The notes under the pieces are model-generated. The model searched no databases and was not told where the DNA came from. It saw nothing but the letters and a program-made list of their open reading frames with translations. A stretch of 64,000 bases of DNA from Actinopolyspora biskrensis (lineage in GTDB: Bacteria > Actinomycetota > Actinomycetes > Mycobacteriales > Pseudonocardiaceae): NCBI RefSeq assembly GCF_013408175.1, contig NZ_JACBYW010000002.1:124001-188000 (forward strand), written 5' to 3'. The translations under genes and the position numbers were made by a program. Each line of letters opens with the position of its first letter. Within the stretch, counting starts at the first letter, position 1. Below, in pieces: positions 55,617 to 60,197 of this stretch.

Positions 55617-57050
55617 TCAGGCCCCGTGCTCGGAGCGATCGCCGGCCCACTCCGTGTGGAAGACCCCGTCGACGTCGGTGCGGCGGTAGGTGTGCGCGCC
55701 GAAGTAGTCCCGCTGCCCCTGGATCAGTGAAGCGGGCAGCCGCTCGGCGCGGACGGTGTCGTAGTAGGCCAGCGCGGCCGACATCCCGGGGACGGGGATC
55801 CCGAGGGAGGTCGCGGTGGCCACCACACGTCGCCACGAGTCCTGGGCCTGCTCGAGGGCCTGCCGGAAGTTCTCGTCGCCCAGCAGGCTGGGGAGTTCCG
55901 GATTCTGGTCGTAGGCAGCGCGGATGCGGTCGAGGAATTTCGCCCTGATGATGCAGCCACCGCGCCAGATCGTGGCCACCGCTCCGTAGTCGATGTTCCA
56001 GTCGTAGGTCTCGCTTCCTGCCCGGATCTGGTTGAAGCCCTGCGCGTAGGCGATGATCTTCGAGGCGTAGAGCGCCTGCTCCACGTCGGCGACGAATCGC
56101 TCGGGGTCGGGTTGTTCGGCGGGGGTGGACGGGCCGGGGAGGTTCCTGCCCGCCTGGCGCAGCCGCACCTGCCCGGAGATCGAGCGGGCGAAGACGGCTT
56201 CGGCTATGCCGCTGACCGGACTGGCGAGTTCGAGAGCGTTCTGCACGGTCCAGCGACCGGTGCCCTTCTGCTCGGCCTGGTCGAGCACGACGTCCACGAA
56301 GGGGCGACCGGTCCGGGGGTCGGTGTGGTCGAGCACCTCGGCGGTGATCCCGATCAGGTAGGACTCCAGACGTCCGCGGTCGAACTCGCGGAAGGTCTCC
56401 GCGATCTCGCCCGGTCCGCGGCCGAGGACGCCGCGCAGCAGGTCGTAGGTCTCGGCGATGAGCTGCATGTCGGCGTACTCGATGCCGTTGTGCACCATCT
56501 TGACGAAGTGCCCCGCGCCGTTTTCGCCCACGTGAGTGACGCACGGGGTGCCGTCGACGTCGGCCGCGATCGAACGCAGGATCGGTTCCAGCTCGCGATA
56601 GGCGCTCGCAGACCCCCCGGGCATGATGCTGGGACCGTGCAGCGCGCCCTCCTCGCCGCCGGAGACCCCGGTCCCGACGAAACGCACGCCCCGTTCGGCC
56701 AGGGAGGACTCGCGGCGCAGGGTGTCCTCGAAGTTGGCGTTGCCCGCGTCGACGACGATGTCGTCGTTGTCCAGCATCGGGACCAGTTCCTCGATCACCG
56801 CGTCGGTGGGACCTCCCGCCTTGACCATCACCACGATGCGGCGAGGGCGCTCCAGGGAGTCGACCAGTTCGCGCAGCGAGTGGCTCGGCACGAACTCGCC
56901 CTCCGAGCCGAACTGCTCGATCAGTTCGTCGGTGCGCTCGCGGTGCCTGTTGTGCACCGCGACGCGGTGGCCGTTGCGAGCGAGGTTGCGCGCCAGGTTG
57001 CGGCCCATGACCGCCAGTCCGGTGACGCCGATCTGTGCCTTGTCGCTCAT
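55617..57050 (-). CDS. gnd: 6-phosphogluconate dehydrogenase (decarboxylating)
   Basis: Converts 6-phosphogluconate to ribulose 5-phosphate with NADP+ in the pentose phosphate pathway. The 477-residue protein has the N-terminal glycine loop GVTGLAVMGRNLARN, NRHRERTDEL typical for NADP binding, GTGVSGGEEGALHGPSIMPGG, and GAGHFVKMVHNGIEYADMQL with the catalytic lysine. ATG at 57050; 20 additional upstream in-frame codons are unlike the family. The protein is full length and similar to the long (about 470-residue) group. Convergent with ileS. Confidence 0.95.
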   Translation of the reverse strand: MSDKAQIGVTGLAVMGRNLARNLARNGHRVAVHNRHRERTDELIEQFGSEGEFVPSHSLRELVDSLERPRRIVVMVKAGGPTDAVIEELVPMLDNDDIVVDAGNANFEDTLRRESSLAERGVRFVGTGVSGGEEGALHGPSIMPGGSASAYRELEPILRSIAADVDGTPCVTHVGENGAGHFVKMVHNGIEYADMQLIAETYDLLRGVLGRGPGEIAETFREFDRGRLESYLIGITAEVLDHTDPRTGRPFVDVVLDQAEQKGTGRWTVQNALELASPVSGIAEAVFARSISGQVRLRQAGRNLPGPSTPAEQPDPERFVADVEQALYASKIIAYAQGFNQIRAGSETYDWNIDYGAVATIWRGGCIIRAKFLDRIRAAYDQNPELPSLLGDENFRQALEQAQDSWRRVVATATSLGIPVPGMSAALAYYDTVRAERLPASLIQGQRDYFGAHTYRRTDVDGVFHTEWAGDRSEHGA

Positions 57051-57221
57051 GTGTGCTCCGTTCGTTCCCGTTCCGGATCCGGCAGTTCGGAGATCCCGCC
57101 GGGGCAACATCGTCGATCCGGTGGAATGTTCCCCGGACTGACTAGCTCATCCCGGTGCTGTGCGCAGTGCGACAGGGCGCACGCGGTGGATCCGGCCGAA
57201 GACGCCGGAACCGACGGTTCG

Positions 57222-57527
57222 TCAGCGCGCCGTCTCGTCCGCGGGGTCCGCGGCGGGGGCGTCCCGGAGCGAGTGGGGTGAGGGGGCGCCGCGCCATACG
57301 GCCGCCAGCTCCTGCGTCGGTAGCCCTAGCGCGTCCCCCAAACCGATGACGGTGCCGAAGGCCGGGGTGGGCAACCGCCCGGATTCGATCTTGCGCAGGG
57401 TTTCCGGGGATATGCCGGCGATTCGTGCCACCTCGTGGGGATCGCGCTCGCCTCGGGCGTCCCGGAGTAGGGTGCCGAGCCGTTTCCCCGCCTCGATCTG
57501 CTCGGGCGTGAGCGGAAGACGCACCAT
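57222..57527 (-). CDS. XRE-family transcriptional regulator
   Basis: A 101-residue one-domain protein with a Cro/cI helix-turn-helix (EVARIAGISPETLRKIESGRLPTPAFGTVIGLGDALG, residues about 32-70). It is divergent from the aminopeptidase gene. Its own ATG has TACCAT ending 6 nt before it, suggesting a leaderless mRNA. Two identical-pattern inverted repeats lie in the 87-bp intergenic DNA. The likely job is repression or activation of itself and map; the signal is unknown. The start is set at MVRLPLTPEQ because the longer frame upstream crosses the promoter region. Confidence 0.88.
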   Translation of the reverse strand: MVRLPLTPEQIEAGKRLGTLLRDARGERDPHEVARIAGISPETLRKIESGRLPTPAFGTVIGLGDALGLPTQELAAVWRGAPSPHSLRDAPAADPADETAR

Positions 57528-57533
57528 ATTCGC

Positions 57534-57539
57534 ATGGTA
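57534..57539 (-). promoter_or_regulatory. candidate -10 of the XRE regulator promoter
   Basis: TACCAT on the minus strand ends 6 nt before the ATG at 57527. The first operator lies immediately upstream of it. Confidence 0.45.
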
Positions 57540-57544
57540 TGTCC

Positions 57545-57558
57545 GGTATTGAAATACC
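57545..57558. promoter_or_regulatory. operator 1 of the XRE/map region
   Basis: GGTATTGAAATACC: 6-bp perfect arms around GA. It lies just upstream of the XRE gene's -10. Confidence 0.6.
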
Positions 57559-57573
57559 AAAAGAAGAGCTTCT

Positions 57574-57587
57574 GGTATTTTAATACC
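57574..57587. promoter_or_regulatory. operator 2 of the XRE/map region
   Basis: GGTATTTTAATACC has the same arms as operator 1, placed 29 bp further on and overlapping a TATTTT that could be the map -10. Confidence 0.6.
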
Positions 57588-57614
57588 TGAAGTTCGAACG
57601 CGAAGGACAGCTCC

Positions 57615-58382
57615 TTGAACGAGTTGAAGTCCGCTGCCGAGATCGAGCACATGCGTTCCACGGGGCGGTTCGTGAGCGAAGTGCTGACCGAGCTGGGTGA
57701 GAACGCCACAGCGGGGACGAACCTTCTCGAGCTCGAGGAACGCGCTCGTGCGGCTCTTCGTCGTCGTCGTGGAGCGAAGTCCTGCTACTGGGACTACGAG
57801 CCCTCGTTCGGTAACGGCCCGTTCCGCGACGTCGTCTGTCTCTCCGTGAACGACGCGGTGCTGCACGGCCTCCCCCGTGACTACGTTCTCGGTGACGGGG
57901 ACGTGCTGAGCATGGACCTCGCGGTCGAGATCGACGGATGGGTGGCCGATTCGGCTCGTAGCGTCATCGTGGGAACGTCGGCCGAGGAGGACGTTCGTCT
58001 CGTGCGGGCCACCGAGGAAGCCCTGGAGGCCGGGATCGCGGCCGCCCGGCCGGACAGCCGGCTGGGGGACGTCTCGGCGGCGATCGGGGCCGTCGCACGC
58101 GAGTACGGCTACTCGGTCAACACGGAGTTCGGCGGGCACGGACTGGGGCGGACCACGCACGAGGAACCGCACGTCTCCAACGGGGGAACCAGGGGACGTG
58201 GACTGCGCCTGCGTCCCGGGCTGACCATCGCCCTCGATCCCTGGTTCGCCCGCCTGACCGACCGGATCGTCCTCGACGAGGACGGGTGGACGATCCGCTC
58301 GGCGGACGGTTCACGCACGGCTCACTCCGAGCGCACCGTGGCGGTCACCGAAGAGGGACCACTGGGGCTGCCCCGGCCCTGA
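57615..58382 (+). CDS. map: type I methionine aminopeptidase, variant
   Basis: Removes N-terminal Met from new proteins. The 255-residue M24 protein keeps most metal ligands: the two Asp of SMDLAVEIDGWVADSAR, the His of GGHGLGRTTHEEPHV, and a Glu in HSERTVAVT. The usual Glu of the TIEP motif is Asp here (TIALDPWF). A short C-terminus ends soon after. The TTG start has GAAGGA about 8 nt upstream. Actinobacteria normally carry another map near secY, so this is probably a second copy. It is paired with a divergent XRE regulator. Confidence 0.9.
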   Translation: MNELKSAAEIEHMRSTGRFVSEVLTELGENATAGTNLLELEERARAALRRRRGAKSCYWDYEPSFGNGPFRDVVCLSVNDAVLHGLPRDYVLGDGDVLSMDLAVEIDGWVADSARSVIVGTSAEEDVRLVRATEEALEAGIAAARPDSRLGDVSAAIGAVAREYGYSVNTEFGGHGLGRTTHEEPHVSNGGTRGRGLRLRPGLTIALDPWFARLTDRIVLDEDGWTIRSADGSRTAHSERTVAVTEEGPLGLPRP

Positions 58383-58548
58383 CCTCTCGGGAGCGAGACG
58401 GAGGCCCCCGGTCCGCGCCGACCGAGCACTCCTCTCGGAACGGGGCCTTCCGCGAGGACTTCGGCGGCGAAGCGGTGCCGCTGCCCCGGACGGGCACGTG
58501 GCGACGGCCTGCTGAGTGCGCCGCCACCCGGTCGGGGAGAATGGTCGT

Positions 58549-59268
58549 GTGAGCGATGAGCGCCGCCGATCCGACTCGACGTCTTCCGGGGAGCACACGG
58601 CACGGGCGGGTTCCGCCGGGGCGCGGGAGTCACCCCGCTGGCGGCTGTTGGGGCTGCTGTTCGGGATCTCCCTGGTGCTGCTCGGGCTGGACGTGCTCAC
58701 CAAGTCGCTGGCGATAGCGCGGCTCGAGGGGCAACCGCCGGTCGAGCTGTTCGGTGGGGCGCTCTACCTGGTGCTCTTCCGCAACCCGGGGGCGGCCTTC
58801 AGCATCGCCACCGGACTCACCTGGGTGCTCGCGCTGCTGGCGATAGTGGTGATCGGGGTCATCATCTGGTTCGCGCCGAAGCTGCGTTCGAAGGGATGGG
58901 CCGTCGGCATCGGTCTCGTCCTCGGGGGGTCCACCGGCAACCTGGTGGACCGGATCTTCCGGGAACCGGGTCCCCTGCGCGGCCACGTGATCGACTTTCT
59001 GTCGGTTCTGGCCCCGGACGGCAGCGTCTGGCCGGTTTTCAACCTGGCCGACTCGGGGATCGTCTGCGGCGGGGTGATCATCGTGCTGTTCGCGCTGCTC
59101 GGGTACGACTACGACGGGACCGTGCAGCGGAAGAAGTCCCGGAGCGCGGTGAACCAGGACACGGACGAGCGCGGCCCCGGGGTGGTCGAACGCGAAGACA
59201 GCGGTGCGGACTCGGAGCGTTCCGGCGCCACCGATCCGGAGCGCGGTGACGGTGAGGAAAAATCTTGA
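58549..59268 (+). CDS. lspA: lipoprotein signal peptidase
   Basis: Cleaves signal peptides of lipoproteins after lipid attachment. The 239-residue protein has four helices. Catalytic Asp blocks are [12 protein letters not shown] and [12 protein letters not shown], and the conserved FRNPGAAF is also present. Compared with the family it has an extra charged N-terminus of about 35 residues and an acidic C-terminal tail. GTG start with GGGGAGA 8 nt upstream. The stop overlaps the TTG of the rluD-like gene, so the pair is coupled. Confidence 0.94.
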
Positions 59269-60197
59269 GTGACCTGCGAACACTGCCTGTTCCGGACGGC
59301 CTGGACGGTATGCGGGTCGATTCGGGGCTGGCCAAACTGCTGGGGATGTCCCGCAGCGCGGTCGCCGCGCTGACCGAGTCCGACGACGTGGAGCTGGACG
59401 GTTCCCCGGTCGGCAAGTCGGACCGTCTGCTGGCCGGTTCCTGGCTGGAGGTGCGGCTCCCCGAGAGCGAGGAACCGGCCGAGGTGGTCCCCGTTCCGGT
59501 CGAGGGACTGACGGTGGTGCACGAGGACGACGACATCGTGGTGGTCAACAAACCCATCGGGGTGGCGGTGCATCCCAGTCCCGGTTGGGAGGGGCCGACC
59601 GTGCTGGGTGGACTGGCCGCCGCGGGGATCACGCTCGCGAGCTCCGGGCCGCCGGAGCGGCAGGGAGTGGTTCACCGCCTGGACGCGGGAACCACCGGAG
59701 TCATGGTGCTCGCGAAGTCGGACCACGCCTACTCGGTGCTCAAGCGTGCGTTCAAGGAACGCACCGTGGACAAGCACTACCACGCGCTGGTGCAGGGGCA
59801 TCCCGATCCGAGCAAGGGGACGATCGATGCGCCGATCGACCGCCACCCTCGGCACGACTACAAGTTCGCGGTGGTCGCGGAGGGCAAGCCCAGCGTCACG
59901 CACTACGAGATCGTGGAGGCGTTCCGGGCGGCCTCGCTGGTGGACGTGAAGTTGGAGACCGGGCGGACCCATCAGATCCGGGTGCACTTCTCGGCGGTGC
60001 GGCATCCCTGCGTCGGGGACCTGACCTACGGGGCCGACCCCGTCCTCGCGCAGCACCTCGGCCTCACGCGCCAGTGGCTGCACGCCTATTCACTGGTCTT
60101 CGAACATCCGGCCCACGGCAGGCGGGTCACGTTCGACAGCGCCTACCCCGCCGATCTGCAACACGCTCTGGACGAGCTGCGCGCCCAGGATCACTGA
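59265..60197 (+). CDS. RluA/RluD-family 23S rRNA pseudouridine synthase
   Basis: Converts specific uridines in large-subunit rRNA to pseudouridine. The 310-residue protein has an N-terminal S4 RNA-binding domain ([21 protein letters not shown]), a catalytic Asp D140 in HRLDAGTTG, and the [12 protein letters not shown] block. The exact target cannot be read from sequence; lspA neighbours are commonly RluD. TTG start inside the lspA stop (TTGA). Its last 7 bp overlap the convergent DedA gene. Confidence 0.92.

Follow-up and report, generated by a model that had tools for sequence, protein, structure and literature searches.

An XRE-type regulator gene and a gene for a type I methionine aminopeptidase (MetAP; map) are divergently arranged in the analysed stretch of DNA (64 kb, hereafter the window), and the short gap that separates them carries two copies of a 14-bp dyad. 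On comparative evidence, the XRE-map pair is a genuine and dedicated regulatory cassette that is widely conserved. Its kind, a divergent XRE autorepressor, is ordinary, and its target is unusual. It is likely that the dedicated XRE autorepressor silences a spare MetAP via operators located over both promoters. Alignment and motif searches establish the pair, the motif, their conservation, the placement of the motif mostly at map, the promoter geometry and a remodelled loop in the enzyme.

In the proposed mechanism, we infer that the small XRE protein would bind the 14-bp dyads GGTATWNNWATACC, of which dyad 1 would lie against the leaderless promoter of XRE itself and dyad 2 would cover or abut the promoter of map. 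With the repressor on the dyads both genes would be off, and relief of repression by a signal would allow synthesis of the target, a spare and structurally distinct type I MetAP present beside the housekeeping copy. The first-pass annotation had proposed a double-operator promoter shared by an XRE regulator and a regulated second aminopeptidase with a changed metal ligand. The sequence data support the shared double-operator promoter, the dedicated pair and the extra gene copy; they do not support the changed ligand as a property of the regulated enzyme.

Intergenic region and promoter geometry

The gap between the two genes comprises 87 bp (57528-57614), bounded by the ATG of XRE (57527) and the TTG of map (57615). 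Its noted richness in A/T was confirmed: the GC content is 42.5% versus 68.2% for the whole window, and in a scan of 63914 windows of 87 bp the 42 with a GC content equal to or below that of the gap all overlapped it (starts 57507-57549). Nowhere else in the 64 kb is an 87-bp position as rich in A/T. Both dyads (Table 1) are perfect copies of the 14-bp motif GGTATT-NN-AATACC (degenerate form GGTATWNNWATACC), and their starts are spaced by 29 bp, exactly as read in the first-pass annotation. At up to two mismatches the window contains these two dyads and no further site, while shuffled windows contained 0.08 sites on average and none of 100 shuffles contained two. The two dyads are also the only exact copies in the strain's own genome (4.95 Mb), in which 24 more sites with one or two mismatches (26 in total) compare with nine for a reversed control pattern. 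A chance origin of the dyads is ruled out by the window shuffles, by these genome counts and by the shuffle control on 80 loci given below.

Table 1 Features of the XRE-map region, in window coordinates
Feature	Position	Strand	Description
XRE-type repressor gene	57222-57527	minus	101 aa, ATG at 57527, N-terminus MVRLPLT
Putative XRE -10 box TACCAT	57534-57539	minus	TAnnnT, first base 12 nt upstream of ATG
Dyad 1 GGTATTGAAATACC	57545-57558	n.a.	XRE-proximal putative operator, perfect
Possible extended -10 of map TGGTATTTT	57573-57581	plus	TGnTAnnnT, overlaps dyad 2
Dyad 2 GGTATTTTAATACC	57574-57587	n.a.	map-proximal putative operator, perfect
Probable map ribosome-binding site AAGGAC	57603-57608	plus	assigned from its position ahead of TTG
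map, type I MetAP gene	57615-58382	plus	255 aa, TTG start
Subfamily loop S-C-Y-W-D-Y-x-P-S-F-G-x-G-P-F	57780-57830	plus	codons 56-72, from alignment
Codon 208, GAT (Asp)	58236-58238	plus	Glu in sibling and other relatives

A generic sigma-70 promoter scan of positions 57000-58700 returned no promoter, and hence the putative -10 boxes are based on spacing and conservation. On the XRE side, the TACCAT box lies 5 bp from dyad 1, in agreement with the earlier placement of this dyad beside the XRE -10. A TAnnnT box is located 12-13 nt ahead of the XRE start codon in 77 of 80 loci (12 nt in the window), a position that suggests a leaderless XRE mRNA. On the map side, a dyad over a possible -10 had likewise been proposed, and TGGTATTTT does overlap dyad 2. 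Among the relatives, TAnnnT begins 6-11 nt before the map-proximal dyad in 51 of the 65 loci with two dyads. The window is without this -10 between the dyads that is typical of most relatives, its candidate being TGGTATTTT over dyad 2, and this counts against the autorepressor. The overlap of dyads and putative promoters suggests repression, and activation is a possible if much less probable outcome that is weighed below.

Fifteen of the 80 loci have a single dyad. In 12 of them it is closer to map, and none of the 15 dyads is more than 32 nt away from the map start. At four of the 80 loci, the map-proximal dyad is more distant from the start of map, at 52-69 nt. All these distances are approximate, since they derive from the tblastn match. 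The four distant dyads count against the autorepressor, as do the three single dyads closer to XRE (L106, L114 and L138). At the last of these loci, from Antrihabitans, the start codons are separated by a gap of 17 nt that is nearly filled by one dyad.

Conservation of the gene pair and specificity of the motif

Thirty MetAP loci were read, the window included, of which 21 encode proteins with at least 64% identity to the window protein. A dyad with up to two mismatches is located upstream of map in all 21 loci at this level of identity and in one of the nine more distant loci. A separate scan for XRE yielded at least 594 matching stretches. The 80 loci analysed come from named actinobacteria, affiliated to Saccharopolyspora, Nocardia, Mycobacterium-type genera, Streptomyces, Actinomadura, Micromonospora, Cryobacterium and others. 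They are the best 80 of these matches to one peptide pattern that covers XRE residues 40-48, so that the choice of loci itself ensures conservation in this segment and favours close relatives. At each of the 80 loci there is a MetAP gene upstream of XRE on the opposite strand, at a distance of up to 200 nt in 79, and in all 80 the motif occurs in the XRE-map gap with up to two mismatches, in at least two copies in 65. After one mononucleotide shuffle per region, the motif was found in one of the 80 gaps and two copies in none. The first-pass annotation had made its reading depend on the presence of the dyads in orthologous XRE-map loci, and in this respect it stands.

Clustering of the neighbouring genes, based on rough ORF calls and unannotated clusters, revealed no widely shared neighbour and thus no common operon context across the 80 loci. 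The largest common family occurred in 16 loci, the 12 listed all being Nocardia, and beyond Nocardia there were small common groups of up to nine loci, a few of them cross-genus. The rough ORF caller grouped map in 78 of the 80 loci and XRE, a short gene, in no more than 43.

Nine of the 21 close orthologues (L013, L016, L017, L019, L021, L022, L023, L025 and L027) have kept the dyads without an adjoining XRE. These loci count against the autorepressor, since control in trans must be assumed for them. Each of the nine genomes encodes a family XRE elsewhere, in G014 about 2.7 kb away, which suggests that the operators may be controlled in trans where the dyads persist without an adjoining XRE. 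The XRE-linked MetAPs at 54-59% identity count against it as well, having related half-sites in another arrangement, e.g. GTGATACTAATACC abutting GGTATAAGTATTGG.

Further arrangements were observed among the loci read. A second group of XRE-map pairs (L054, L057, L064 and L070) has two 14-bp dyad-like units that abut each other instead of lying about 30 bp apart. At L062, L065 and L067, an XRE without a MetAP on the same contig stretch has one degenerate dyad (e.g. CCGATACTAATACC) at its own promoter. In G019 (L069), XRE and map are arranged tail to tail, and the 220 nt upstream of XRE contain no dyad.

In a set of 61 genomes, including that of the window strain, the exact form of the degenerate motif was present in 24 genomes, 21 of which have it at map. 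Three genomes contained the reversed control pattern. The remaining three motif genomes (L151, L155 and L157) all carry GGTATTCGAATACC, a perfect palindrome of the same type, with neither MetAP nor XRE in the 3-kb locus. The motif occurs at map in 21 of the 39 genomes with a family XRE and in none of the 22 without one, a comparison uncorrected for shared ancestry. In a class-wide sample of 296 genomes, the motif was found in 29 and the reversed control in 14. The motif loci, read as 3-kb stretches and generally one per genome, were at a MetAP gene in 16 of the 29 genomes, at an XRE alone in one (L176, a family XRE in a locus read without MetAP) and at neither gene in 12, ten of which have a genome size of at most 2.4 Mb. 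Judged by the counts for the motif and the reversed control, its occurrence outside map loci is about at chance frequency. The 12 of 29 motif genomes without either gene, next to 14 of 296 for the reversed control, are a further point against the autorepressor.

The aminopeptidase encoded by map

By its profile and structure-database matches, the map product is a type I MetAP: it scored 219.5 bits against TIGR00500 (cut-off 171.35) and matched MetAPs in the PDB down to 4.5e-46. Its AF2 model has a mean pLDDT of 63.7, with residues 57-85 below 50. The first-pass annotation had pointed to a possible second map near secY, and such a gene is present in the own genome; this housekeeping copy stands in the order secY-adk-map, the names of its neighbours being those we presume from their sequences. 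A third MetAP-like gene of this genome (G000:C2:47613) is 31% identical.

For the comparison of residues, clades A and B were set by identity to the window protein. The alignment of 140 MetAP rows contains repeats (L005, L011 and L041 all stand for the window, L012 and L042 for a single genome), and the key counts were redone on distinct proteins. Clade A comprises 95 distinct proteins with identities of 61-89%, one of them without a letter at the sites compared. According to this alignment, the common hallmark of the MetAP subfamily is a remodelled, longer loop (Table 1). Its fixed positions are kept in 91-94 of 94 distinct clade-A proteins (109-114 of 114 rows with repeats), and the secY-linked copy has the shorter P-S-F-K-G-Y-H-G-F-P at this place. 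In MetAP of Escherichia coli, the corresponding stretch lines the methionine pocket.

Type I MetAPs have five metal ligands (D, D, H, E and E). The window protein has kept D101, D112, H175 and E239; the fifth ligand position is Asp208, unlike the residue in the four solved MetAPs aligned. The changed ligand reported in the first-pass annotation is hence real in the window strain, but it does not extend to the relatives. The sibling genome G005 encodes a MetAP with 95% identity that has Glu208 and His240, and among the distinct clade-A proteins with a letter at these sites Glu is found at 208 in 94 of 94 and His at 240 in 93 of 94, while codon 240 of the window strain (58332-58334) encodes Arg. 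At site 208, the 21 rows with 47-60% identity comprise 18 Glu, one Ala in a partial row and two gaps. Asp208 and Arg240 are, as far as the aligned proteins tell, private to the window strain. Since the sibling and all 94 relatives compared have Glu at this site, an altered metal ligand was rejected as the feature that defines the regulated enzyme.

The putative repressor and a possible signal for its release

The XRE protein was recognized by the Pfam profiles HTH_31 (38.8 bits, cut-off 27) and HTH_3 (28.5 bits, cut-off 23). Its AF2 model consists of one helical HTH domain with residues 1-7 as coil and a poorly predicted tail, and it contains no sensor domain; residues 1-75 include no invariant Cys or His across the 80 loci. 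XRE thus appears to be a single-domain repressor-like protein, and from the conserved adjoining dyads we infer that it binds DNA specifically. An antitoxin of a toxin-antitoxin system (Y4mF-type) was rejected, the score against TIGR03070 being 23.8 bits with a cut-off of 71.65.

At the N-terminus of XRE, Val2 and Arg3 are present in 80 of 80 loci, with the start of L131 taken as the in-frame ATG 12 nt further upstream, and the use of four different Val codons places the constraint on Val2 at the protein level. The same residues occur in all 30 family XREs of L041-L070, including that of the window and unlinked ones. In a profile search of the 61 genomes, 44 family XREs were obtained whose alignments all begin at profile position 1-2; weaker-scoring XREs align from positions 10-17 only, the sole exception being a split pair in a fragmentary genome. 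By this profile, the N-terminal arm is a mark of the XRE family. With the profile, a family XRE was found in 41 of the 61 genomes and a partial hit, split in two, in G020; the E-value search behind the comparison with the motif at map gave 39 of 61. Of the 44 proteins, 33 are encoded divergently to a MetAP within 200 nt, and these MetAPs are 40-100% identical to that of the window.

Among solved structures, the Rhodococcus protein 2ofy is nearest to XRE (Z 14.8, rmsd 1.9, 80 residues aligned); it belongs to the same family by sequence (1.8e-37) and starts with MVRVPLT. The entry is a crystal structure whose title states no function, and the open-licence PMC paper that names it is, by the part of its text available, a simulation study. 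The single-domain XRE fold is also shared by C.BclI, C.AhdI and C.Esp1396I. Restriction-modification controller proteins of this kind use tandem dyads over their own promoter and that of their partner. In contrast to them, the XRE described here has a MetAP as partner and affiliates with a family marked by its N-terminal arm. The linkage to restriction-modification genes expected of such a controller was not seen: at each of the 80 loci the partner gene encodes a MetAP, the neighbours in the window resemble 6-phosphogluconate dehydrogenase and lspA genes, and the unannotated clusters of the rough neighbour comparison included no widely shared gene.

The closest precedent, with another class of regulator, is the second MetAP of Bacillus subtilis, YflG, with its weak repressor YvoA (PMC1266368). 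According to the portion of that report available, the likeness consists in a dispensable second MetAP that is kept low, a repressor and an essential housekeeping map alongside. YvoA differs in being a GntR-type protein encoded elsewhere, in a GlcNAc context, with a twofold effect (PMC1266368), whereas in the window a dedicated XRE adjoins map and the double motif is conserved. In Saccharopolyspora erythraea, genes annotated as xre-reg and meth-ap are located near sace_3599 in the same 10.5-kb region; they appear as annotation only, and the sections of the paper available contain nothing on their regulation (PMC7435583). Among the matches listed from the open-licence literature in PubMed Central, there was no paper on the XRE-map pair as a regulatory system.

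Several readings compete over what, if anything, releases the spare MetAP. It is conceivable, though we hold it only tentatively, that negative autoregulation is free of any signal and that XRE merely holds the spare MetAP low and steady. A single HTH domain without sensor domain would be in line with this, as would the presence of a dyad at each of the two promoters in 65 of the 80 loci. It is at odds, however, with the single dyads, which in 12 of 15 loci are nearer to map: autorepression of XRE would often be dispensable while the map dyad is kept, and the retained map dyad hints that map is meant for release at times. A response of XRE to a ligand, a metal or a partner protein tied to stress or to MetAP inhibitors is rather unlikely. 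A conserved dedicated regulator of an enzyme changed in the loop of the methionine pocket (as known from E. coli) would agree with it, but neither a sensor domain, nor an invariant Cys or His in residues 1-75, nor a widely shared neighbour gene was found in the loci compared. Activation of map by XRE, after the manner of the restriction-modification controllers, is very improbable; C.BclI and C.AhdI do rank among the nearest folds after 2ofy, but dyads that overlap or flank putative -10 regions form the geometry of a repressor.

A special case of the autorepressor would be a sensor of MetAP activity, in which the N-terminus of XRE (Met-Val-Arg-x-Pro-Leu-Thr) is itself a substrate of MetAP. With enough MetAP, Met would be removed and the DNA-contacting arm would work; with MetAP short or inhibited, Met would stay, operator binding would be weaker and spare MetAP would be made until processing recovers. 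We regard this reading as quite improbable. It would account for the invariant Val2 and Arg3 with their four Val codons (80 of 80 loci and 30 of 30 in L041-L070), for an arm that marks the family in all 44 members and for a model that shows a single HTH domain and lacks a sensor domain. DNA contact may, however, be the sole role of the arm, as it is for the N-terminal arm of lambda repressor (rank 40 in the XRE fold list). A strict Val, never replaced by Ala, Ser, Thr or Gly, suits a side-chain contact equally well, unlinked XREs also keep the arm, and the choice of the processed form as the active one is a guess. The size of Val2 is in favour of the sensor: MetAP requires a second residue 'not larger than Val', as given in the available part of the source (PMC4745127), which makes Val2 a borderline substrate for Met removal. 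The more pointed claim, that removal or retention of Met on the invariant Met-Val-Arg arm reports MetAP capacity and directly sets the spare MetAP, is decidedly improbable in our estimate, and so is the product-substrate feedback loop without separate sensor domain that it implies. If it were true, a MetAP inhibitor would automatically induce the spare enzyme. XRE would then use its own N-terminus to gauge methionine excision, with a bearing on the way in which soil actinobacteria cope with MetAP inhibitors.

Under the preferred reading of a dedicated autorepressor, a cassette with a fixed motif in many actinobacterial genera may offer a ready reporter of N-terminal processing stress. In the window, map is followed by lspA-like and pseudouridine-synthase-like genes (58516-60197), and XRE is followed on the same strand by a 6-phosphogluconate dehydrogenase-like gene (55617-57110), all three being named as we presume from their sequences.
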